From the NCBI RefSeq assembly GCF_001874645.1, contig NZ_CP017886.1:744001-808000 (forward strand): a stretch of DNA of 64,000 bases, given 5' to 3'. The notes beneath the pieces were generated by a model. That model ran no database searches, was not told the DNA's origin, and was given only the letters and a program-made list of their open reading frames with translations. The position numbers and the translations under genes are program-made. This DNA is from Pseudomonas frederiksbergensis. Its GTDB lineage: Bacteria; Pseudomonadota; Gammaproteobacteria; Pseudomonadales; Pseudomonadaceae. Positions within the stretch are counted from its first letter, which is position 1, and each line of letters begins with the position of its first letter. This document shows positions 46,652-58,207 of the stretch, piece by piece.

Positions 46652-46727
<76 letters not shown>

Positions 46728-46798: not shown

Positions 46799-46889
46799 GT
46801 TTTGGCGTTCTGTCGGATTCCGGTGGGTACCAGCCATTTTAAGGGTAGAGTTTGGGATAAAGGTCAGTTCGATAAAAGGGAGTACCCTT

Positions 46890-48211
46890 ATGTCGCGCAC
46901 TACTGCTCCACTCTCCGACGCCGCTTGCCGTTCGGCCAAGCCCACAGATGCACCTACAAGCTTTTTGACGGCGACGGCCTTTACCTTCTAGTCCAACCCA
47001 ATGGCCGCAAAGGCTGGCGTCTCAGATACGTCAAACCTGATGGCCGGGAAGGACTGACCTCATTCGGCAACTACCCCATCGTTGGCCTCGCGGATGCGCG
47101 CCGCAAGCGCTTGGAGGTCAAGCGAATGCTGGCGGATGGCATTGACCCTATAGGAGCCAAGAACCAAGCCAAGACGGACGCTCTGATCAAAGGCCGCACC
47201 TTTGAAAGCGTTGCCCTCGGCTGGCACACGGAAATGTCAGCCAAGTGGGCACCGGACTATTCCAAGACAGTGATGAGTCGCCTCAAAACTCACCTCTTCC
47301 CACTGATCGGCGCCCGCGCCATTGTCGACCTTGATACCCACGACCTTATGCGGCCCCTGGACGCGATTAAGAAGCGCGGAACGATAGAGATTGCTTTAAG
47401 GGTACAAAACTACCTGCAGAGCATCATGCGCGAGGCAAAGCGCCTCCGGCTTATCACCGTAAACCCTGCTTACGACCTCGTAGGCTCGATCAAAGCCTCG
47501 CGGGTCGTCCACCGCCCCGCCTTATCCTTATCGCGCTTGCCTGAATTGCAGGAACGGATCGACACCTATAAAGGCCGCGCACTTACCCGGCTGACGGTCT
47601 TGCTGTCGCTGCACGTGTTTGTACGCTCCAGCGAGCTGCGCTTCGCCCGCTGGAGCGAGTTCGACCTCAAACGTGGCGTCTGGGAAATACCCGACACGCG
47701 ACCAGCGTTGGAAGGCGTACCCTTTTCCACAAGGGGTACGAAGATGGCAGGCGATATCCATCTTGTACCCTTATCGCCGCAAGCGGTCGCTTTGCTCGAG
47801 CAGATCCAAGCAATCACAGGCAAATTTGACTTGGTGTTCGCAGGCGATACCAAGTCTTGGAAACCAATGTCCGAAAACACCGTGAACAGCGCGCTTCGGA
47901 AAATGGGGTACGACACCAAAACCGAGATCTGCGGCCATGGCTTTCGTTCGATGGCCTGCAGCGCACTGATCGAGTCGGGTTTGTGGACGGACACAGCCAT
48001 CGAGCGGCAGATGAGCCACAAGGAACGCAACAACGTCCGCGCCGCTTACATCCACAAGGCCGAATTCATCGAGGAGCGCAGGCTGATCATGAACTGGTGG
48101 AGTCGCTACCTTGAGGCCAATCAGCAGGAGCATGTCAGCCCACGCGAATTCGCCAATCAGACCGGTGCGAATGTCTCTCGACTAAAAGCAAAACGTGGCG
48201 CAACTGAGTAA
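46890..48211 (+). pseudogene. P4-type tyrosine integrase, frameshifted near the N-terminus
   Basis: The natural start is ATG 46890 with AAAAGGGAG upstream; it encodes SRTTAPLSDAACRSAKPTDAP, the usual P4 integrase opening. At about 46953-46955 the frame must shift by one missing base to reach YKLFDGDGLYLLVQPNGRKGW, after which the frame is open to 48211. The rest is complete: DUF4102 arm-binding domain, SAM-like core and catalytic Arg (VFVRSSELRFARW), His-x-x-Arg (HGFRSMACSAL) and Tyr (RAAYIHKAEF). An unshifted alternative start upstream would give an unusual N-terminus. Total about 440 residues if restored. Sequencing error is an alternative explanation. Confidence 0.85.
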
Positions 48212-48296: not shown

Positions 48297-49121
48297 CTCA
48301 CTTAAAAAATCTAGAGCCCACGCAATTGTCTGTGGAAAACCACTGATTTCCATTAGTGGATAAGTTCATCTACAGCCGCAGAACTCCCGAAAATTCGAGC
48401 CTTGACCCGAATTCTCCACAGGCGTAGAAAAGGTCGGGCAAAGCGCTGTCGTTGACAGCAACCCAGGTAGCCAGAACCTTTAAGGCTACGCCACGCCGTG
48501 GTGGTTCTCCCAAAGTGCGATTAGCGTCCGGTGGCTCGCACGGTCACTCACCGAGTGATGGATGCCCACTTCAGATCATTGCCATTGCGGCAAATACATC
48601 CCCCTACCCAACTGCCCTGCAGCAACCTATCCGCGTGGCCATTTCATTGCGCCAACCTGCGCCCGTCTCTTTCTCCCGGAAAGAGACGGGCGCTCCTACC
48701 ACTGCTGCAGCCCACCTCGTACAAGGCTTTGCGGCATTTCCCCTCGTGACAATCGGCGTGACAAACACCGAAGTCACCAGCAACAGCGATGCAGATGATG
48801 GTGCCGCAGCCCACGGAATGGACTGCACCTGACTGACAGTCAGGTATGCCCCGGTCATTGCCTCGCTGCCTTCACCCGACTCAGGATCTCGCGGCATTGG
48901 TCTCGTCAGCCAGCGCAGCCTCCACCCGCCCACTTCTTCGGAAGTGTTCAGGAGGCCAGATCATGAGATGCCCAAGCTCCCGGTCGTAAAGAGCCGCCAG
49001 TCCCGCGTTAGTGGACACCCCTCACAGGTCGCAGGGGCCTTGATCCCTGATAACACTCAACATCCTTGGCGGGATGACGTGGGGAAAGTTTCAAAGGTTT
49101 GGCTTCGAGAGGAGTTCGATC
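48297..49121. other. Gene-poor segment of the island
   Basis: About 820 bp without a convincing gene. Open frames here (for example 48452-48832 plus and 48604-48933 minus) have no recognisable domain and odd composition and look like degraded coding sequence. Three DnaA-box-like nonamers lie at 48331-48339, 48356-48363 and 48412-48420. Confidence 0.5.
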
Positions 49122-49494
49122 ATGGCACCAGTGGGCAGGCGAGATGGACGCAATTTTGGCTATGGCCGGCAACTGAGTTATGCCGGGCCGCAGGCATTGC
49201 GCGATCTATTTGGCGGCGGGCATTACGGCACGGTGCAGGCGCACAGTGATCGCTGGCAGGCGTTTGTTCGGTGGTGTCGCTCGGAGGATGGACCAGGGTT
49301 TAACGATGCGCGACAAATTGATCGGCAGACCTTGTTGGACTACGCCGGACATCTGCGTCAGCAAGTTGAATAAGTGCGATATCGGCATCGCCACCGCGCA
49401 AAACCGGTTGTCCAGTGTGAATCGAACCATGACGGCGCTTCGCGGCGATCAGTATGTGAGCGTCTCGACGATGCCTGACAGCAAGCGGTGCTGA
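49122..49494 (+). pseudogene. Remnant of a second integrase (N-terminal part)
   Basis: ATG 49122 has GAGGAG upstream. The product begins RRDGRNFGYGRQLSYAGPQA and continues FGGGHYGTVQAHSDRWQAFVRW and ARQIDRQTLLDYAGHLRQQV, the N-terminal SAM-like domain of integrases known from integrative elements of Pseudomonas, as I recall. It then hits a stop; after a shift of frame near 49370 the expected IATAQNRLSSVNRTMTALRGDQYV follows to about 49494, and the catalytic domain is missing. A decayed fragment. Confidence 0.75.
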
Positions 49495-49610: not shown

Positions 49611-49629
49611 CCTACCAACTGGATGGTAG
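49611..49629. promoter_or_regulatory. TetR-type operator upstream of ahpD
   Basis: CCTACCAACTGGATGGTAG contains CTACCA and its reverse complement TGGTAG, 55 bp before the ahpD start. The same CCTACCAACTGG core precedes osmC, suggesting a common repressor, probably one or both island TetR proteins. Confidence 0.65.
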
Positions 49630-49683
49630 TTTGTTAGCAAGTTTTTAGATAACTGTAATTAACACCATCCCTGTGAGAATCCC

Positions 49684-50016
49684 ATGCAAGATTGGAAGCA
49701 AACCCGCAAAGACATCAATACTCGCTTGGTAGAACTAAACGGCCTGTCTCCGGAAACAATGAAAGGCATGGCGGCGCTCGGCGCTGCCGGCGGCAAGACC
49801 AATCACCTGGACGCGAAGACCCGAGAACTGATCTCGCTCGCCGTGGCCGTGACCACCCGCTGCGACGGTTGCATCGCCTTCCACGCCGCCGAAGCCAAGA
49901 AACTTGGCGTCACCAGTGAAGAAGTCGCCGAAGCACTGGGCGTGGCAATCAACATGAACGCCGGTGCCGCGTTGGTGTACAGCACACATGTGCTGGACGC
50001 TTTCGATAAGTCGTAA
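49684..50016 (+). CDS. ahpD: AhpD-like carboxymuconolactone decarboxylase family protein
   Basis: This 110-residue protein has the AhpD-type active site Cys60-Asp-Gly-Cys63 with His67 (TTRCDGCIAFHAAEA) and the family helix LDAKTRELISLAVAV. AhpD-like proteins are thiol peroxidase/disulfide reductase partners; the CxxC pair fits handling of disulfides or peroxides, not ring cleavage. ATG 49684 lies near GTGAGAAT. It is the first gene of ahpD-oye-4ot, followed by oye after 44 nt, and has a TetR-type operator in front. Confidence 0.88.
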   Translation: MQDWKQTRKDINTRLVELNGLSPETMKGMAALGAAGGKTNHLDAKTRELISLAVAVTTRCDGCIAFHAAEAKKLGVTSEEVAEALGVAINMNAGAALVYSTHVLDAFDKS

Positions 50017-50060
50017 ATCAAACGCTGACTTTCAACCTGTTAACGACTTCGAGACCAATC

Positions 50061-51167
50061 ATGAATAAGCTGCTCACCCCTTACGATCTGTCCGGTACTG
50101 CGCTAAAAAACCGGGTCGTTATGGCCCCCATGACCCGCACCCGGACCCTAGACAACATCCCTAACGAGTTCACCGCGATGTATTACGCGCAGCGTGCTTC
50201 TGCTGGTCTGCTGATCACCGAAGGCCTGCCGATTTCCGACGAAGCCCGTGGCTACCTGTACACCCCAGGTATTTATGCCGACGAACACTTGCCAGGCTGG
50301 CGTCAGGTCACCGACGCGGTGCATGCCAAGGGCGGGAAGATCTTCGCGCAGTTATGGCACGTTGGCCGTATGTCCCATATTTCGGTGCATGGCATGGTTC
50401 CGGTTTCTTCGGGTACTCAGCCGGCGGTCGATACCACGGTGTATGCCTGGATCGAGCCTGGCGAATCCGGCGCTGTGCAACCCAGCGTGCCCCGTGCGCT
50501 GGAAACGGAAGAAGTGAAACGTGTCATCGCTGACTTTGTGAAGTCTGCGCGTATGGCGATGGAGGCCGGTTTTGACGGTATCGAAATCATGGCTGCCAAC
50601 GGGTTCCTGTTCGATCAGTTCCTCAGCAGCGCCTTGAACACCCGTACCGACCAGTACGGTGGCTCGATCGCCAATCGCCAGCGCTTTCTGCTGGAAACCA
50701 TTGACGCGATTTCTGCCGAAATCGGCGGCTCGAAGATTGGCGTACGGTTCTCGCCGTTTGGCCGCCTGTATGACTTTGGTGTGTACGAAGGTGAAGCAGA
50801 AACCTGGATGAGCATGGCGGCAGCGCTTAATGAACGCGAACTGGCCTACGTCCACCTGAACTACCAACCGACCATCGTCGCCGCTGAAACGCCGCCGGGG
50901 TTCGGCGCCGCGTTCCGTGAAGCCTACAAGGGTACCTTGATGGCCGCCGGTGGGTTTAACCAAGCCCTCGCTGAGTCGGAACTGGTTAAAGGTGAACTCG
51001 ACTTGATCGCCTTCGGTACGGCCTACATCGCCAACCCCGATTTGGTGGAGCGCATGCAGAACGGCTGGCCACTGGCAGAGGGTGATCGCGCGACTTACTA
51101 CGGTGTCAGCGATCGCATTGCCAAGGGTTACACCGACTACCCGGAATACGTTGCAGCCAAAGCCTGA
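50061..51167 (+). CDS. Old Yellow Enzyme family NADH:flavin oxidoreductase with altered active site
   Basis: This 368-residue FMN TIM-barrel protein of the NemA/OYE family reduces activated C=C bonds of electrophiles. It begins KLLTPYDLSGTALKNRVVMAPMTR (in part) and has AQLWHVGRMSH and QYGGSIANRQRF. In the substrate pocket, OYE1 HSANGY is MAANGF here: His191 is Met177 and the proton-donor Tyr196 is Phe182, while Asn194 is kept as Asn180. This may change substrate range or weaken protonation. It lies in an operon with AhpD and tautomerase, fitting electrophile detoxification. Confidence 0.92.
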   Translation: MNKLLTPYDLSGTALKNRVVMAPMTRTRTLDNIPNEFTAMYYAQRASAGLLITEGLPISDEARGYLYTPGIYADEHLPGWRQVTDAVHAKGGKIFAQLWHVGRMSHISVHGMVPVSSGTQPAVDTTVYAWIEPGESGAVQPSVPRALETEEVKRVIADFVKSARMAMEAGFDGIEIMAANGFLFDQFLSSALNTRTDQYGGSIANRQRFLLETIDAISAEIGGSKIGVRFSPFGRLYDFGVYEGEAETWMSMAAALNERELAYVHLNYQPTIVAAETPPGFGAAFREAYKGTLMAAGGFNQALAESELVKGELDLIAFGTAYIANPDLVERMQNGWPLAEGDRATYYGVSDRIAKGYTDYPEYVAAKA

Positions 51168-51215
51168 TTATTCGCTGTTTCATCACTGTCCACTTCAGAC
51201 GTTAAGGAGCACACC

Positions 51216-51434
51216 ATGCCTCTCGTTACCATCAAAGGCATTGAAGGCGTTTTTACCGACAAGCAGAAAGCCGAAGTCATCCAGAAAGTGACGGACGCCA
51301 TGGTGTCTGTGGAAGGTGAAAACATGCGCGCCCTCACCTGGGTCATCTTCGAAGAGGTCAAAAGCGGAGATTGGGGAATCGCTGGCGAACCCGTGACTGC
51401 GCAGGACATATTGAAACTGCAAGTAGGTAAATAA
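51216..51434 (+). CDS. 4-oxalocrotonate tautomerase family protein
   Basis: This 72-residue tautomerase has the catalytic N-terminal proline after Met removal (MPLVTIKGIEG) and the family pattern FTDKQKAEVIQKVTDAMVSVEGENMRALTWVIFEEV (in parts). ATG 51216 follows TTAAGGAG. It is third in ahpD-oye-4ot. Small tautomerases of this group act on unsaturated keto acids or dehalogenate electrophiles; the physiological substrate is unknown. A very strong terminator follows. Confidence 0.88.
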   Translation: MPLVTIKGIEGVFTDKQKAEVIQKVTDAMVSVEGENMRALTWVIFEEVKSGDWGIAGEPVTAQDILKLQVGK

Positions 51435-51456
51435 AGGGTTCCATCCCCAAAAAGCG

Positions 51457-51506
51457 ACTCTCTGGTCGGTGGGCATCTTCATGCCCAACGACCAGAGAGT
51501 TTTTTC
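51457..51506 (+). terminator. Terminator of ahpD-oye-4ot
   Basis: ACTCTCTGGTCG and CGACCAGAGAGT form a perfect 12-bp stem enclosing a second stem (TGGGCAT/ATGCCCA), followed by TTTTTT. It separates the operon from the kefF-kefC remnant. Confidence 0.92.
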
Positions 51507-51545
51507 GTTCTGAATGAACTCGCGATTTGTCGTGGAATGCTCCCA

Positions 51546-52302
51546 ATGATTCTGATCATTACGCTCACCCTTACCCCGACAAATCCAAGGTTAACGAGGT
51601 GATGCTCAGGCAAGCCTCCAATAACCCGGATGTGGTCATACGCTCCCTTTATGACCTGTACCCGGACTTCAACATCGATGTCCAAGCCGAGCAGCAATCC
51701 CTAGAACAGGCAGAGCTTCTGGTCCTGCAACATCCGCTGTACTGGTACAGCTGCCCGCCGCTGCTGAAATTGTGGATCGATAAAGCCTTCACCCAAGGGT
51801 GGGCCTATGGCAAAGGCGCCACCGCACTCAAAGGTAAGAGCTTGTTGTGGGCCGTGACCACCGGCGGCGAGCACGACCAGTTCGACATGGGTGACCACCC
51901 CCGGGTTTTCGGTGCTTGCCCAACCCCTGCATGCGACCGCGGCCTACTGCCAGATGCGCAGGCTGACGCCTGTGGCTGTCCACGGTGCTTTCAACGCTGC
52001 CCCTCGACCCTGCTTTCGCATTGTCCTTGGGCCGCAGGGCATTGGAGCAACTGGGCATTGGTCGTTACAAAGCCCGCGAACGAGCGGATCGATTCCGTCG
52101 CCTGAACCTGGAGATGCTGGAAGAAATGGCCGCGCAGCCGGTGGATGATACCGAGTTCAAGTATGACGCCTACAAACGGGCCAACGTGCTGTTAACGGAA
52201 ATCTTCAACGAAGACCGCGCTCATCCCATCGATAACTGGTCCGGGGCAAATCCACACCCTAGGGATGAAAAAGAACGCCAGGCTGATCAGCCTGACCGCT
52301 GA
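51546..52302 (+). pseudogene. kefF-kefC deletion remnant
   Basis: The left part is a KefF-type quinone oxidoreductase: after ATG 51546 a one-base loss near 51558 breaks the frame (YAHPYPDKSKVNEVML follows), then flavodoxin-fold residues HPLYWYSCPPLLKLWIDKAFT and TTGGEHDQF, then a further shift near 51895 to FSVLAQPLHATAAYC. From about 52014 the sequence instead matches the C-terminal tail of the KefC potassium/proton antiporter (RRALEQLGIGRYKARERADR, FRRLNLEMLEEMA). So most of kefC and the end of kefF were deleted and fused. The product is surely non-functional as an antiporter. Confidence 0.85.
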
Positions 52303-52316
52303 TGGAGGAGGTTCGG

Positions 52317-52646
52317 TTAAATCGCCTCTTCCAACTCCGCAAGAATGGCTTTTTTCACTGTTCCAACTGAACGGGATCCGGGTATGACCCGCAGCAGCCG
52401 CCCCTCATGGAACACCGCCAAGGATGGCACCACCCGGATACCGTACATTTGCGCGATCGCCGGAGACACCACCACATCAATCTTTGCAAAAGCCGCCAAG
52501 GAGTGAAGCTTTTCTTCCAAAGCATGAAAGACCGGCTTCATCTGCTGACAAGGCTTGCACCAGGACGCTGAAAACAGAACGACGCTGCTGCCTTTGGCCA
52601 CAAAGCGGGCGAACTGCTGAGCACTCAACTCAACGATACGGCTCAT
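52317..52646 (-). CDS. Thioredoxin family protein
   Basis: This 109-residue thioredoxin has the active site Trp-Cys30-Lys-Pro-Cys33 (LFSASWCKPCQQMKPVF) and the cis-Pro segment RVVPSLAVF. WCKPC deviates from the WCGPC of housekeeping thioredoxin. No signal peptide is present. I chose ATG 52644-52646 (SRIVELSAQQF), preceded by GAGCGAG. It is third in tetR-dsbA-trx, convergent with the kefF-kefC remnant, and would reduce disulfides formed by thiol-reactive compounds. Confidence 0.9.
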   Translation of the reverse strand: MSRIVELSAQQFARFVAKGSSVVLFSASWCKPCQQMKPVFHALEEKLHSLAAFAKIDVVVSPAIAQMYGIRVVPSLAVFHEGRLLRVIPGSRSVGTVKKAILAELEEAI

Positions 52647-52709
52647 TTGGATCTCGCTCTCAATATGGATGAAGGACAGCACAACCCAGTGCCGCACCGC
52701 TTCTGCTGA

Positions 52710-53408
52710 TCAAATTTTGCAGCCATCTATGCCGCAGACTTGACTGCTGAATGCGTCATCTTCGACTTTCGACTTCTCCTGCATCTTGTTCAGCGCTTCA
52801 AGAAAAGCAGCCTCAGGCTGAGCACCGGACAATGAGAAGGCATTATCGAATACAAACAAAGGCACGCCCGAACCTAGTTGCGCGGCGATATGTTCGTCTT
52901 CCTCCATCTCTTCGCGCAATTCAACGGATGACCACGCCCGTTGGATTAACGCGTCCGAAACACCTACGGCCTTGGCTATGGCCTCCAGGCTGCCGCGATC
53001 AAACAGCGACTGACCATGGGAGGTGCTTTGCTCATACAGCGCCTCGACCAAGCGTTTTTTAACGACTTCGTCCACAACCGCCTTGACCAGTACATGGGCA
53101 TCTGCGGTATCGCCAAACAGCATGCTGTCAAAGCGGTAATCAAGCCCATCGGCCCGACCATATTTACTGACGGTGTTCATCATCGCGACAGCGGAATCCG
53201 GATTGCCGAGCTTGCGTTTAAGGGCAGCGATCATAGGCTCTGGCGCTTGATTCGCCGCCAGACGATAGGCCTTGACGTTGACTTGTACATTGTCTTTTTC
53301 AGCAAATTTATCGAGCGCCTGCTCGAATCGACGCTTGGCTACCCAGCACCAAGGGCAAACAAAATCAGCCCAGGTATCCACTGCATATTTTTTCGAAGAA
53401 GTTTGCAT
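52710..53408 (-). CDS. DsbA family oxidoreductase, FrnE-like
   Basis: This 232-residue cytoplasmic DsbA-type protein has the active site Cys18-Pro-Trp-Cys21 (ADFVCPWCWVAKRRFE) and the cis-Pro region GSGVPLFVF near residue 180. A second pair, Cys225 and Cys230 (CGIDGCKI), ends the protein, as in FrnE-type disulfide isomerases linked to oxidative stress tolerance. The start is ATG 53406-53408, with AGGACGAG upstream, 23 nt after the TetR stop. It likely acts with the thioredoxin downstream. Confidence 0.9.
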   Translation of the reverse strand: MQTSSKKYAVDTWADFVCPWCWVAKRRFEQALDKFAEKDNVQVNVKAYRLAANQAPEPMIAALKRKLGNPDSAVAMMNTVSKYGRADGLDYRFDSMLFGDTADAHVLVKAVVDEVVKKRLVEALYEQSTSHGQSLFDRGSLEAIAKAVGVSDALIQRAWSSVELREEMEEDEHIAAQLGSGVPLFVFDNAFSLSGAQPEAAFLEALNKMQEKSKVEDDAFSSQVCGIDGCKI

Positions 53409-53431
53409 GACTCGTCCTGTACTCAAAGAAA

Positions 53432-54004
53432 TCAAGACCGCGTTACCAGCGTTTCAAGCAAATGATCGAAGCCTGCCAACGGGTCGGTTGATCGGCCCAA
53501 TGTCCAATCGATAAGGCTCGCGCCCTCCAGGCTGCTCAGCAGCATGAACGCGTAGGTCTCAACGGGTTTGTCCAGCGACCAGTTGCGCTGCCGGACCCCT
53601 GCATTGAGGGTGGCCTGAAGCCAATCGAGCTGGGTTTCAAAGAACGCCCGAGTGAGCCCTTGCAGCGACAGCGGCAGTGCCGCCATTTCTGCCGCCAGGG
53701 CACCACACAAGGGCAGCAGCCCCTCGTTGGCGCTGATGATGAAAAGCCGGGCAAAACCACGAAGCCGCAGCAGCGGATCGACATGCGTTTCTTCGATCGA
53801 ACTGAGGGTCGCATCGAAGCGTTTGATGTAGTCCTTGATCAACTCCGCGCCCAGGCTTTCCTTGGTCGGGAAGTGATGGTGAATACTGGCTTTTCTAATG
53901 CCGATCTGCGCCGCAAGATCGGCATAACTGAACGCGGAATAGCCCTTGGAGCGCATTTGGGTTTCCGCAGCTCTCAACAGCGCTGCTTTTGTCGTGATCG
54001 ACAT
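53432..54004 (-). CDS. TetR-family regulator (NemR-like), first of two in the island
   Basis: This 190-residue repressor has the HTH with the recognition helix KASIHHHFPTKESL (residues about 38-51), typical of NemR-like TetR proteins that sense electrophiles through cysteine. A Cys lies in LLPLCGALAAEM (near residue 101), in both island paralogues. It heads tetR-dsbA-trx. A palindrome (TTCACT/AGTGAA) at 54037-54055 lies just upstream. It is closely related to the TetR at 55934-56509 (shared GYxAFSYADLAxxIGIxKAS). Confidence 0.9.
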   Translation of the reverse strand: MSITTKAALLRAAETQMRSKGYSAFSYADLAAQIGIRKASIHHHFPTKESLGAELIKDYIKRFDATLSSIEETHVDPLLRLRGFARLFIISANEGLLPLCGALAAEMAALPLSLQGLTRAFFETQLDWLQATLNAGVRQRNWSLDKPVETYAFMLLSSLEGASLIDWTLGRSTDPLAGFDHLLETLVTRS

Positions 54005-54036
54005 TGAAGACTCCTGCAGCCAGCATTCAGCCTACT

Positions 54037-54055
54037 TTCACTTGTACTGAGTGAA
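54037..54055. promoter_or_regulatory. Candidate operator of the first island TetR
   Basis: TTCACT-N7-AGTGAA is a symmetric sequence 33 bp upstream of the tetR start. It differs from the CTACCA/TGGTAG operator of ahpD and osmC, so the assignment is tentative. Confidence 0.35.
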
Positions 54056-54060
54056 GGCGT

Positions 54061-54085
54061 GAAAGCTCCCGCGATGGGAGCTTTC
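54061..54085 (-). terminator. Terminator after the SDR gene
   Basis: GAAAGCTCCC and GGGAGCTTTC form a perfect 10-bp stem 25 nt after the SDR stop. The tail is CACGCC, so U-tract support is weak. Confidence 0.55.
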
Positions 54086-54109
54086 ATCAGGCCGCGCTCG
54101 CCACTGTGG

Positions 54110-54883
54110 TCAGGCCCGAACAGCCATAATTCCAGCATCCACGTCCCAGATTGCGCCGGTCACCCAGGACGTCTTGTCCGACAGCAGGAACAGGATGGTG
54201 TTGGCGACGTCTTCGGGAACGCCGACTCGTCCCAGGGGGTGGAAATCGTTCAGCGATTTCATCGCTTCCGGGATCGCCTCTTTGTCCATGAACCCTTCAT
54301 AGATCGAGGTGTGAACGATCCCTGGTGAGACGGCGTTGACCCGGATACCCGAGTGAGCCAATTCAATTGCTAGGTTGCGTGTCAGCGCATGCAGACCTGC
54401 CTTTGCCATGGAGTAGGCAGAGGCCGGTGAACCTGCCAATGCGGCCTGCGCACCGATGGAGCCAACATTGACAATTGCCCCTTCGCGCTTGGCAGCCAGC
54501 ATGTTCTTGACCACTGCCTGGGTGATGAAGAAGGTCGCACGGTTCAGAGACAGGTACATGTCGTACTCGGCCTCATCGTGCTCGGTGAACGGCTTGGGAA
54601 TAAAGATCCCGGCGGAGTTCACCATCAGGCTGATATCGCTATGGTTGGCATTGATTTCCTTGCGAACAAAATTCATGCCTTCTTCAGTCATCAGGTTGGC
54701 GACGATCACCGACACAGGGCCCAGCGGGCTCAGCTCGTTACGCACCGCATCGGCCTTGTCTTGCTTGCTGCCGGTGAGCACCACGCTGCCGCCTGCCTTG
54801 AGCACCATGCGGGCCGTTTCCAGGCCCATGCCACTGGTGCCACCGACAACTAGCAGTTTTTTACCTTTGAAAAAATCGTTCAT
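54110..54883 (-). CDS. SDR-family oxidoreductase
   Basis: This 257-residue short-chain dehydrogenase has [18 protein letters not shown] (cofactor motif, residues about 10-26), catalytic Ser in [10 protein letters not shown] and the YSMAK site near 156, ending [30 protein letters not shown] after strand 2 suggests NADP. It is downstream of osmC by 98 nt and on the same strand, so osmC-sdr may be one unit under the osmC operator. It may reduce carbonyl or quinone electrophiles; substrate unknown. Confidence 0.9.
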
Positions 54884-54981
54884 TGCAGACTCCGGTTATC
54901 CAGAACTAATTAGGGTCGGCACCAAGGCGGCTGGCTGCCTGCTGGTGCACGCAAGGTTTGAATCTCTTTGAAACGAGCGAA

Positions 54982-55536
54982 TCAGCCCTCACGCACTTCG
55001 AGGGTTGGCACCATGCGGATGGCTTTCGAGAAGTTGGCGTAGTTGACCGAGGTTTTGAGCACCACTTTGTGCAGCTCTTCAACGCGCTCACGGGAGGCGT
55101 CGGTGTGCAGTCGAATCACCACACTCACTTCGTCGTAACCTGGGTTGACGCTCTCGTCGAGGCCCAGGAAGCCTCGCAGGTCGAGGGTGCCGTCCGTTTC
55201 GATTTCCAGGCTGTGAATCTTGATACCCATCATTGCGGCGTTGGCGGCATAACCGACCGACATGCAGGCGTTGAGAGCGGCCATCAGCAGCTCTTGAGGG
55301 TTAGGCGCAGTGTTTTGGCCCAGCAATTCATTAGGCTCATCGGCGACGATTTCGAAATCCCGCGGATAGGTTTCACCGGCCAGACTGTAGCGATTGACTT
55401 TGGCCACAGAGCGAGTCTGGCCTTTCCACTGAGTCTTGACGTTGAAGCTCGCGTGGCGCTTGGTCGCATCCTCAGCAACGCTTTGGGCAAACTGCTGGAG
55501 TGCGGCGACATCGATACCATTCAGGTTGTTGCTCAT
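54982..55536 (-). CDS. OsmC-family protein with a single cysteine
   Basis: This 184-residue protein has the OsmC/Ohr fold: PRDFEIVADEPNELLGQNTAPNPQELLMAALNACMSVGY (in parts) holds the peroxidatic Cys91, and the C-terminal half carries LHTDASRERVEELHKVV. The second cysteine, usually in a CPV-like turn, is replaced (KTSVNY), so this is a one-Cys member that needs an external reductant. ATG 55534-55536 follows AGAGGAACG. It lies behind a perfect CCTACCAACTGGTAGG operator. Peroxide or sulfur-compound detoxification is likely. Confidence 0.88.
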   Translation of the reverse strand: MSNNLNGIDVAALQQFAQSVAEDATKRHASFNVKTQWKGQTRSVAKVNRYSLAGETYPRDFEIVADEPNELLGQNTAPNPQELLMAALNACMSVGYAANAAMMGIKIHSLEIETDGTLDLRGFLGLDESVNPGYDEVSVVIRLHTDASRERVEELHKVVLKTSVNYANFSKAIRMVPTLEVREG

Positions 55537-55588
55537 GTGTTCGTTCCTCTTCGGATGGACCGGGCGTTTGGCCCGGAAGAGAAACAAG

Positions 55589-55604
55589 CCTACCAACTGG
55601 TAGG
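55589..55604. promoter_or_regulatory. TetR-type operator upstream of osmC
   Basis: CCTACCAACTGGTAGG is a nearly perfect 16-bp palindrome 52 bp before the osmC start. It shares CCTACCAACTGG with the site before ahpD at 49611-49629. Confidence 0.7.
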
Positions 55605-55933
55605 TTGTCGATCAATAGATTATTATTCTTATAACCAATCGCCAAAAAAAACCAGCTTCGACAGAGTTTTCCTGAATAGGGATAACTCCGATAACAATGC
55701 AGTAATTTCTACTTAATCTTGTACTTCTGGTCACACACCGAAAGTGTAGACATGGGTAGGTATCCGCAACCCAAATGCGAGACTAGACGTACGCTCGTCA
55801 GATTGAGTGCGCGCAAAAAGAATTCAGAGAGCGTGAGCTAAGCGGCTGAAACCACTTACGAGGCGGGAAAACGGACCGAGCCAGCAGGGGCAGAATCGGT
55901 CGTTTTATGACGCAGAAAAAAGCTGATCGAACC
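55605..55933. other. AT-rich intergenic region osmC / second TetR
   Basis: About 330 bp without a convincing gene. The stretch is clearly AT-richer than the core genes; ATTATTATTCTTATAACC at about 55620-55637 may hold the osmC promoter. Nothing else is recognised. Confidence 0.4.
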
Positions 55934-56509
55934 TCAGTGATGCGTTTCGGTAACCCGAAGCCCATCTAAAATGAAATCAAATCCAGAAGACTGTTCGTAA
56001 TTGTCGCTCAGCGCCCAAGATACAAAGCTGCCACCTTCCAACGTATTCAAGATGAACCTGGCAACCTTCACGCCGTCCAGCTCAGCTTTGAGTTCCCCTG
56101 CCGCCTGGCCCAGTGCGATATTGGCCTGAAGCCAATTGAGATGGATTTCGAAAAAGTCCCGCGTCAATTCCTTTAGGCTTTCAGGCAAAGCCAGCAATTC
56201 CGCTGCCAGGGCGCCGCAGAGCGGAAGCATCGCGTTTTTACTGCTTTGCGCGAACATCAGGGCGAAGGCATTGAGCCGATCGATAATGCCGGTATTTTCA
56301 TCATTGATGCATTCCAGCTGATTCTTGAACCGGAACAGATAACTCTCAACGATGGCGATCGCCAGACTTTCTTTGGTGGGAAAGTGGTGGTGAATACTCG
56401 CCTTCTTGATACCGATGTCTTCCGCCAGATCGGCATAGCTGAAGGCTGCGTAGCCCTTGGTACGCAACAGAATCTCAGCGCTGGTCAGGAGGTCGGAACG
56501 TGTACTCAT
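55934..56509 (-). CDS. TetR-family regulator (NemR-like), second of two in the island
   Basis: This 191-residue repressor is a close paralogue of the one at 53432-54004: GYAAFSYADLAEDIGIKKAS and HHHFPTKESLAIAI in the DNA-binding domain and a Cys in MLPLCGALAAELLALPESL. Codon use is more AT-rich than in the core genes. It stands alone with an inverted repeat (AATTTAT/ATAAATT) 14 bp upstream. It may control ahpD-oye-4ot or osmC-sdr through the shared operator. Confidence 0.9.
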   Translation of the reverse strand: MSTRSDLLTSAEILLRTKGYAAFSYADLAEDIGIKKASIHHHFPTKESLAIAIVESYLFRFKNQLECINDENTGIIDRLNAFALMFAQSSKNAMLPLCGALAAELLALPESLKELTRDFFEIHLNWLQANIALGQAAGELKAELDGVKVARFILNTLEGGSFVSWALSDNYEQSSGFDFILDGLRVTETHH

Positions 56510-56522
56510 GATGCCGTTTCCA

Positions 56523-56548
56523 AATTTATCAATGCGGCATCATAAATT
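56523..56548. promoter_or_regulatory. Inverted repeat upstream of the second TetR
   Basis: AATTTAT (56523-56529) and ATAAATT (56542-56548) are 12 bp apart just before the tetR start. Autoregulatory operator is a guess. Confidence 0.3.
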
Positions 56549-56810
56549 AGTACTTCTTCATAAGACAGCGCTCAGGTTGCGCACCTATGAACCACCCACT
56601 GGAATCGGCCACAAGCAGTCAGCCGTTTCACAGCGCTGCATTCTCCTCAGTGAAATAGGCCCAACGTTAGATTATTAATTTTCTACTGTTGCCGCTGCCC
56701 CGCTCATGAGGTACTGAAAGAACTCGCATAAAATACTGGCCTGATTAGGATAATCGTAGGGATAGAGACTTTAGAAATCAGCATGAATTTATTGTAAAAC
56801 AGGTACTTAA
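56549..56810. other. Gene-free AT-rich segment before the IS5-type element
   Basis: About 260 bp with no recognisable gene or repeat; ends in TTAA, the target duplicate of the IS. Confidence 0.4.
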
Positions 56811-58002
56811 GGAAGGTCTGAAGTAGTCAGCGATTTTTGATGCCCTCGTTGGTAGAGGTTCAAAAAACGCTGGCTGGTCAGAAATCAGACCTTTCCTATT
56901 CTTAACTCATCGTTTCACCCTTGAGCGACGCCTTTTCAAGGCGCTTTTCCCGCATTACAGGCGCATCTCTCCCGCGACCAGCAGCCGTTTTCGCATCATC
57001 CACAGGTTCGACAGGGCAAATAGCGTGGCCTGTTGCGCGGTGTTTTTCATCAGGCCGCGAAAGCGCACTTTCGTATAGCCAAACTGACGCTTGATCACTC
57101 GGAATGGATGCTCAACCTTCGCCCGGACTTGTGCTTTCGCATATTCGATTTTGCGCCGCAGGCGCCCGATCAAACTCTTTTTCGCGTGTTTTTTATAGCT
57201 GCTGGGCCGTGCGGCAATCGACCAGATCATCTTGCGATTCTGATGCTCAGGACGCTTGTCCACACCGGTGTAACCGGCATCGCCAGACACGTATGATTCC
57301 TCGCCATGCAGCAACTGATCGACCTGCGTCACGTCCGCCACATTGGCCGCCGTGCCCACCAGGCTATGCACCAAACCCGACTCGGCATCGACGCCGATAT
57401 GCGCTTTCATCCCGAAGAAATACATGTTCCCCTTCTTCGTCTGATGCATTTCGGGGTCGCGTTTACCCTCTTTATTCTTGGTCGAACTCGGCGCATGAAT
57501 GATCGTCGCATCGACCACCGTACCTTGGCGCAACATCAGGCCACGGTCGCCCAGATAACCGTTGATGACCTGCAAAATCCCGCCGGCCAACTCATGTTTT
57601 TCCAACAGACGTCGGAAGTTGAGGATCGTGGTTTCATCGGGAATCCGATCCAGATGCAGCCCCGAAAACTGGCGCAGGATAGTGGTCTCGTACAGCGCTT
57701 CTTCCATCGCCGGATCGCTGTAGCCGAACCAGTTCTGCATCAGATGAACCCGCAACATCGCCATCAATGGATACGCCGGACGACCACCTTCGCCTTTCGG
57801 ATAATTCGGCTCGATCAAGGCAATCAGACCCTTCCAGGGCACGACCTGATCCATCTCGATCAGGAAACGCTCGCGGCGGGTCTGCTTACGTTTGCCGGCG
57901 TACTCGGCATCGGCGAAGGACATCTGTTTCATCGGGGCTCAACCGTCGTGTTCGGATCAGGCGGCTATTTCACCAAATCTGAAAGTCTTTTTCAGAGTTT
58001 CC
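56811..58002 (-). mobile_element. IS5-family insertion sequence
   Basis: The ends GGAAGGTCTGAAGTAGTC (56811 on) and, on the other strand, GGAAACTCTGAAAAAGAC (ending at 58002) are imperfect terminal inverted repeats beginning GGAA as in IS5. A TTAA duplicate flanks both sides (56807-56810 and 58003-58006), as expected for IS5-type YTAR-like targets. The element is 1192 bp with one transposase. The first 89 bp form an imperfect palindrome. It sits 11 bp from attR. Confidence 0.85.
56955..57932 (-). CDS. IS5-family DDE transposase
   Basis: This 325-residue transposase has the IS5-group order: N-terminal DUF772-like part (SFADAEYAGKRKQTRRERFLIEM, in part; YPLMAMLRVHLMQNWFGYSDP), then DDE residues in GTVVDATIIHAPSSTKN (Asp), YVSGDAGYTGVDKR (Asp) and KVEHPFRVIKRQFGYTKVRFRG (in part; Glu). 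No frameshift is seen, so it may be active. ATG 57930-57932. Confidence 0.93.
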   Translation of the reverse strand: MKQMSFADAEYAGKRKQTRRERFLIEMDQVVPWKGLIALIEPNYPKGEGGRPAYPLMAMLRVHLMQNWFGYSDPAMEEALYETTILRQFSGLHLDRIPDETTILNFRRLLEKHELAGGILQVINGYLGDRGLMLRQGTVVDATIIHAPSSTKNKEGKRDPEMHQTKKGNMYFFGMKAHIGVDAESGLVHSLVGTAANVADVTQVDQLLHGEESYVSGDAGYTGVDKRPEHQNRKMIWSIAARPSSYKKHAKKSLIGRLRRKIEYAKAQVRAKVEHPFRVIKRQFGYTKVRFRGLMKNTAQQATLFALSNLWMMRKRLLVAGEMRL

Positions 58003-58013
58003 TTAAGTTTTCA

Positions 58014-58039
58014 TTCGAGTCCAGGTCGTGAGCCAGACA
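58014..58039 (+). other. attR of the tRNA-Asn island
   Basis: TTCGAGTCCAGGTCGTG followed by AGCCAGACA repeats the tRNA-Asn 3' end; one G of the GTGGAG stretch is missing, so 26 of 27 bases match. It lies at the right limit of the island, followed by a terminator. Confidence 0.85.
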
Positions 58040-58101: not shown

Positions 58102-58177
58102 AAAAGATCGCAGCCTGCGGCAGCTCCAGGATTTACACCGACCCAATGTAGGAACTGCCGCAGGCTGCGATCTTTTG
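58102..58177. repeat. REP pair (BIME)
   Basis: Two inverted REP units (AAAAGATCGCAGCCTGCGGC and GTAGGAACTGCCGCAGGCTG) between the island junction and the permease gene. They mark the return to core chromosome. Confidence 0.85.
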
Positions 58178-58207
58178 ATCTTCAAGCTTTATCAGTGAGT
58201 GCTGCGG

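Follow-up and report, generated by a model that had tools for sequence, protein, structure and literature searches.

We analyzed a 64,000-bp window of DNA (G000:C1:744001-808000 of a 6.12-Mb Pseudomonas genome; positions below are those of the window) that holds a dense group of thiol-redox genes at 49684-56509. These genes most probably form a thiosulfinate (allicin) tolerance cluster in the gene order of P. fluorescens PfAR-1, borne on a small integrase-bearing island in a tRNA-Asn gene. We give this reading a probability of about 0.83, with tolerance extrapolated from relatives that have been assayed. The evidence that carries it is the gene content and order, the conservation of predicted regulatory boxes and of cysteines, the island borders, a deletion shared between loci and the horizontal spread of the island. 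The system is a known one in a new, trimmed and mobile package.

Gene content and relation to known clusters

The cluster consists of two convergent units and not, as the initial annotation had described it, of three divergent blocks. On the plus strand lie ahpD (49684-50016; CMD family with a CDGC motif), oye (50061-51167; Old Yellow Enzyme or alkene reductase), a 4-oxalocrotonate tautomerase-like gene (4-ot, 51216-51434; 72 aa with Pro after Met1) and a kefF-kefC (kefFC) remnant at 51527-52302, in which an internal deletion has joined most of kefF to the terminal portion of kefC, the two being in different frames. Facing this unit on the minus strand are tetR2 (55934-56509; AltR-like regulator with Cys98), osmC (54982-55536; OsmC-like protein with a single conserved cysteine, Cys91), sdr (54110-54883; short-chain dehydrogenase), tetR1 (53432-54004; AltR-like regulator with Cys100), dsbA (frnE; 52710-53408; DsbA/FrnE-like oxidoreductase with CPWC and a C-terminal CGIDGC) and trx (52317-52646; thioredoxin-like with CKPC). 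All genes that the initial annotation had named were found where it had placed them, and the nine intact proteins matched the expected Pfam families (CMD/AhpD, Oxidored_FMN, Tautomerase, Thioredoxin, DSBA, adh_short, OsmC and, twice, TetR_N). The kefF-kefC sequence it listed is there too, as remnants in different frames and not as an intact pair. No second cluster copy was found in the genome, the only matches being short and weak.

The proposed likeness to the allicin resistance set of PfAR-1 held in a gene-by-gene comparison. According to Borlinghaus et al. 2020 (PMC7119367), PfAR-1 clones 1-7 carry osmC-sdr-tetR-dsbA-trx together with ahpD-oye-4ot-kefF-kefC and gave resistance to allicin, and ahpD alone and dsbA alone each gave resistance. 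The PfAR-1 copies (L023, L035 and L036 in LR782234.1) have the gene order of the window, with tetR2 absent within 9 kb of dsbA in L035 and about 5 kb further off in L036. Identity to L023 ranged from 68 to 100% (ahpD 100, sdr 93, osmC 91, oye 90, 4-ot 88, trx 81, dsbA 78, tetR1 77 and tetR2 68%). Eight genes of the PfAR-1 ten-gene set are intact in the window, in the same order and on the same strands, and kefF and kefC are represented by remnants only, so that the window holds an alt cluster that follows the PfAR-1 order but lacks KefFC, and not a full ten-gene set. The PfAR-1 regions RE1-RE3 also share with the window the boxes upstream of ahpD and osmC, AltR-like TetR proteins and a genomic-island setting. 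They differ in having full KefF-KefC and in lying on three islands of 79-98 kb, as given in the PfAR-1 report, whereas the window has kefFC deleted and an 11.3-kb island with an integrase at tRNA-Asn.

The same gene order was seen in two further tested strains. P. salomonii ICMP 14252 (L019 and L024) is described as allicin resistant in PMC7119367, and in P. alliivorans 20GA0068 (L029) deletion of alt enlarged the allicin inhibition zones, according to PMC12724166. Unlike the window, these three loci have an intact KefC (the KefF frame of L029 contains a stop), and no tRNA lies within the fetched stretch.

The likeness to the Pantoea alt clusters was borne out for the genes but not for their arrangement. 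The onion plasmid of P. agglomerans (L107) and the AltR system of P. ananatis have homologues of the window genes tetR, ahpD, trx, oye, dsbA, sdr and osmC, and they also share with the window the regulator cysteine and the half-sites at the core of the box. In L107, however, the gene order is different, the cluster is plasmid-borne, gor and other genes are present and 4-ot and kefFC are missing. Identity to the window, where genes could be matched, is 36-86% (sdr 86, oye 69, ahpD 64, dsbA 39 and osmC 36%), and membership in the Pantoea-type arrangement was rejected on gene order and identity. The lack of kefFC in L107 means that KefFC is not general to alt clusters; among mined alt clusters kefC was counted twice versus 41 times for altR, according to a passage of PMC12306174. 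As a separate observation, a conjugative Klebsiella plasmid (L108, NZ_OW969913.1, 3332-7541) carries alt-like tetR, ahpD, trx, oye, dsbA and sdr with IS26 nearby. Plasmid records matching DsbA at E <= 1e-5 numbered 763, of which 278 were from Klebsiella, and alt-like clusters in this genus are already reported in PMC12306174, as seen in passages of that paper.

The cluster lies on a tRNA-Asn island

The element is larger than the coordinates given in the initial annotation. It runs from a 17-bp direct repeat (attL, 46705-46721, plus strand) in the 3' end of a tRNA-Asn(GTT) gene, predicted by ARAGORN at 46652-46727 on the plus strand, to an exact copy of this tRNA end (attR, 58014-58030, plus strand). 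Between the repeats are a tyrosine integrase gene (46802-48211, plus strand; Pfam Phage_integrase and Arm-DNA-bind_3), the cluster and one insertion sequence (IS) with a DDE transposase gene of DUF772 type (56955-57932, minus strand; Pfam DDE_Tnp_1), which together make up the 11.3-kb island. The IS is particular to the window copy, since positions 56800-58013 were without match in the nine related loci compared.

A survey for the same arrangement in tRNA-Asn showed that it recurs in other Pseudomonas. Among the nine related loci the 17-bp repeat is present at both ends in L008, L010 and L097, where the islands are 9.8-10.1 kb long and have no IS. The repeat was seen on the tRNA side only in L007, L032 and L096 and on the far side only in L009 (a short contig), and L011 has a repeat and a piece of an integrase but no tRNA. 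At tRNA-Asn in L028 we found a PfAR-1-type cluster in the other orientation. A 417-bp integrase remnant is also present there and has 97.6% identity to the integrase of the window. Empty sites were also found: the joined window flanks align as one piece over the junction in G011 (L111), at 79%, and L112 also aligns across. These are two of the 13 permease loci examined; the other 11 are without tRNA-Asn in the fetched stretch, L110 matching 94 junction bases. The window thus has what is expected of a tRNA-targeted integrative island, an integrase beside the tRNA gene, direct repeats at both ends and an empty site in a relative. The G+C content in 2-kb windows gives weak support for horizontal acquisition: it is 0.51-0.58 in the island and 0.575-0.620 over 7001-46000, but it is also low over the initial 8 kb (0.55-0.57) and beyond the island (0.56-0.58).

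Two further sequences were observed in and beside the island. An open frame at 49074-49373 resembles by eye the N-terminus of another integrase and has no Pfam match, and a short repeat element at 58102-58180 has many copies elsewhere in the genome and in some of the related genomes.

Among the open-licence literature matches listed (titles, abstract starts and passages) there was nothing on alt clusters in tRNA-Asn islands, on kefFC loss or on the boxes of these Pseudomonas loci. The only alt paper among them to name tRNA-Asn (PMC12873547) concerns, in the passages available, type VI secretion system loci. Horizontal transfer of such clusters as such is already reported in PMC7119367 and PMC12724166.

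Conserved cysteines and predicted operators

The cluster loci were found through a DsbA match (the best 80 of 89 matches, giving 79 distinct loci), and catalytic residues were compared in 48 loci. The AhpD CDGC motif is kept in 47/47 readable loci, the thioredoxin CKPC in 48/48 and the DsbA CPWC in 47/47, and the two cysteines of the C-terminal CGIDGC in 48 and 47 loci; all four DsbA cysteines are present at each locus that is readable there. Structural relatives of this DsbA in the PDB are FrnE and SCO1869. OsmC has one conserved cysteine only (48/48 loci). Classic OsmC/Ohr peroxidases use two cysteines, which makes a classic peroxidase role of this OsmC doubtful.

The AltR protein of Pantoea represses the alt cluster, belongs to the TetR family, responds to thiosulfinates and cannot sense without Cys100, according to PMC13178969. 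The equivalent of this cysteine was present in all 44 aligned TetR rows (35 distinct genes, nine rows repeating a gene), both TetR proteins of the window included, while every other cysteine column was filled in at most nine of the 44 rows.

Two AltR-like boxes are predicted operators, and both are conserved in Pseudomonas loci: a 16-bp palindrome upstream of osmC (55589-55604, minus strand) and a 19-bp form upstream of ahpD (49611-49629, plus strand). Boxes were counted in 37 of the 43 loci tabulated below, and a single mononucleotide-shuffled version of each promoter served as control. The osmC box (consensus CCTACYAGTTGGTAGG) was found with at most three mismatches in 37/37 Pseudomonas loci, and with at most two in 35, and the ahpD box (CCTACCAACTGGATGGTAG) with at most two mismatches in 36/36. 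At the same cut-offs no box was found upstream of tetR1 (29 promoters), tetR2 (35), sdr (33), dsbA (37), trx (37), oye (32) or 4-ot (30), and the shuffled promoters gave a match in 1/37 for osmC and none in the other sets. The osmC box core CTAC-N6-GTAG is exact in the window and agrees in half-sites and spacing with that of the Pantoea box, CAATCTAC-N6-GTAGATTG. A looser pattern, CNACTNGNTGGTAG, occurs at four places in the genome (the ahpD box and three others) versus six for the backward control and so gives no indication of a wider regulon. The boxes are therefore supported by their conservation and not by their rarity. The tetR2 leader (56510-56600) contains another stretch, around GTACTAATTTATGATGC, that is common to many Pseudomonas loci and distinct from the AltR-like box.

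Several loci without tetR1 keep both boxes (e.g. L012, L013, L014 and L039), which suggests that TetR2 could regulate the cluster alone.

By analogy with the tested relatives, the TetR regulators would bind the boxes in the ahpD and osmC promoters and so keep two convergent operons (ahpD-oye-4ot and osmC-sdr-tetR1-dsbA-trx) repressed, and modification of the conserved TetR cysteine by a thiosulfinate would release the regulators. Mixed disulfides on proteins and small thiols would then be reversed by AhpD (CXXC), DsbA/FrnE (CXXC and CX4C) and thioredoxin (CXXC), and OYE, the tautomerase, SDR and the one-cysteine OsmC would assist in putative roles. The KefF-KefC potassium efflux part is lost and would be dispensable for persistence and spread of the island.

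A shared kefF-kefC deletion and spread of the trimmed island

The window retains about 74% of KefF and residues 522-597 of 608 of KefC, in different frames, and Kef function from this remnant was rejected because the KefC membrane part is absent. The same remnant, 95-99% identical, is present in six other loci (L008, L009, L010, L032, L096 and L097), from which it follows that the deletion preceded the spread. Two other loci of this clade, L007 and L011, retain less kefFC than the window or none. Three KefC-like antiporters (44, 36 and 35% identity) are encoded elsewhere in the genome, besides a partial match at 29%, and it is possible that these might compensate for the loss.

Where a comparison could be made, dS (synonymous divergence) of the island genes was 0.00-0.20 versus 0.36-0.77 for flanking genes (1.2 for NAT), which indicates horizontal spread well after the species parted. 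The left flank was compared in L007, L008, L010, L032 and L097 and the right flank in L010 and L097 only; two left-flank frames (left43445 and left44502) were disregarded, as they overlap better frames and have dN (nonsynonymous divergence) above dS, which is non-coding behaviour. The right-flank gene of the window was not found beside the island in L007, L008, L032 or L096, and in L096 the sequence to the left of the island maps to another part of the window genome, so that the island is in a different neighbourhood there. The att repeats, the empty site and the dS contrast show that the cluster was horizontally acquired, and the shared remnant together with the dS contrast shows that the trimmed form is what spread. 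A cluster-type DsbA (E <= 1e-30) was found in 23 of 398 sampled Pseudomonas genomes, this one included, five of them at 96% identity or more.

Natural deletions across loci

We tabulated the cluster genes in 43 loci (the window, L007-L041 minus L015, L096, L097, L099-L103 and L105), leaving out more distant loci and dropping L015, the additional copy carried by the L014 genome. Both kefF and kefC are intact in 21 loci and partly or wholly deleted in 18; in the remaining 4 of the 22 non-intact cases a stop, frame break or insertion is the sole defect, and these were left out of the deletion count. Losses were counted by scripted parsimony, for which the best tree of AhpD, OsmC, DsbA and Trx was used. 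The minimum numbers of deletions were seven for tetR1, five for kefFC, five for 4-ot (taking in a partial match in L101), two each for oye and sdr and one for tetR2, and none was required for osmC, trx or ahpD; ahpD is intact in 42/42 readable loci. Cells affected by the limits of the fetched loci were not counted: the 4-ot gap of L034 is a distance-limit artefact (the gene is present), L034 ends before oye and ahpD, and L038 starts inside the cluster. Several branches of the tree are weak; for the intact/broken label the starred branches force at least five changes, and the best tree needs eight. The kefFC remnants also differ between loci (KefC 334-599 in L012, a C-terminal piece of KefF in L014, nothing in L028), in agreement with separate deletion events. 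Stops, frame breaks or insertions were also seen in osmC (L025), dsbA and tetR2 (L037), trx (L041, L102) and sdr (L032, L105), and such breaks may be sequence errors in draft genomes. Since dsbA was the search bait its loss would be invisible, and its retention is no evidence.

Four loci (L038, L039, L041 and L102) are reduced to osmC, dsbA, trx and ahpD, plus tetR2 where the locus extends that far. A stop in the trx frame in L041 and L102 weakens trx as a member of a minimal set. In P. brassicacearum (L039) and P. kilonensis (L041) we observed a 3.5-kb minimal cluster of tetR2, osmC, dsbA, trx and ahpD with both boxes kept. Tentatively, and with somewhat less than even confidence, we propose that the tRNA-Asn islands may be a streamlined vehicle dedicated to thiosulfinate tolerance, in which a working unit without KefFC was selected and spread. 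In this reading the repeated natural deletions across Pseudomonas point to a minimal tolerance set in which a single AltR-like repressor, acting on two boxes, controls ahpD, osmC, dsbA and, with less certainty, trx, L039 being an example.

Alternative explanations

Several observations weigh against a functional tolerance island in this strain. We know of no published tolerance assay for this strain or for any other bacterium that bears the trimmed island. A kefF insertion in PfAR-1 clones was without visible effect, but a kefC insertion in clone 1 raised allicin sensitivity, according to PMC7119367, and the trimmed cluster could therefore be weaker. The spacing of the ahpD box is longer than that of the AltR-box core, and a genome-wide scan gave a single place for the osmC core CTACYANNTGGTAG and likewise for its backward control. 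The usual N-terminal start of the integrase is out of frame in the window and in L010 (it is open in L008, L032, L096 and L097). Compared to L010, within the close clade, dN/dS of dsbA, trx and tetR1 is 0.39-0.46. Versus the nearest relative, L096, trx has six amino-acid changes and no silent one and dsbA four and none, with eight and eight for the other seven genes together; versus L008 the counts are six and two for trx and seven and one for dsbA. These numbers are small and point to relaxed or adaptive change at the dsbA-trx end of the window copy.

The last points would fit a decaying relic, a once-useful island that lost kefFC and integrase function and whose remainder is drifting in this strain. 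The kefFC remnant, the out-of-frame integrase, the inserted IS and the excess of amino-acid changes in trx and dsbA speak for it. The nine genes besides kefF and kefC are, on the other hand, open and of full length with their catalytic cysteines kept, and the decay noted in the initial annotation is clear only in kefF-kefC and the integrase N-terminus. The kefFC deletion, common to six other loci, predates the spread. Over longer distances dN/dS is low (versus loci outside the close clade, ahpD 0.00-0.04, osmC 0.02-0.07 and sdr 0.02-0.04; tetR1 values for L012 and L013 were disregarded as cross-hits to tetR2), and each retained gene is under purifying selection. We regard a relic as quite unlikely.

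The cluster could also be a general shield against reactive electrophiles and oxidants, following a NemR/KefFC/OYE logic and not aimed at thiosulfinates, as the initial annotation had offered as an option. OYE, the tautomerase, SDR and the kefFC ancestor are typical electrophile genes, and the record titles of the carriers name no Allium source, though titles seldom give the source. The part lost repeatedly is, however, the electrophile module KefFC, whereas the cysteine pairs of the dithiol enzymes are preserved at each readable locus. The published specificity data also disfavour such a shield: PfAR-1 clones gave no protection against N-ethylmaleimide (NEM), H2O2 or cumene hydroperoxide (CHPO), and Pantoea AltR did not respond to NEM, diamide or H2O2, according to PMC7119367 and PMC13178969, respectively. 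We consider this explanation very improbable. A chance gathering of redox genes was rejected in view of the recurrence of the gene order in tens of loci.

Taken together, a thiosulfinate tolerance cluster on a tRNA-Asn island remains the preferred reading, and it ties a known system for tolerance of plant defence to a small mobile element whose spread seems to have crossed species borders within Pseudomonas. The natural deletions are a test of gene need, as in the loci examined kefFC, tetR1 and 4-ot were lost repeatedly and ahpD, osmC and trx never by deletion. The two conserved boxes could serve as a direct reporter for the thiosulfinates that such bacteria encounter in nature. If the proposed minimal set is correct, the system would be a disulfide-repair machine and not an electrophile defence, and would probably also be used against thiosulfinates of non-Allium plants.

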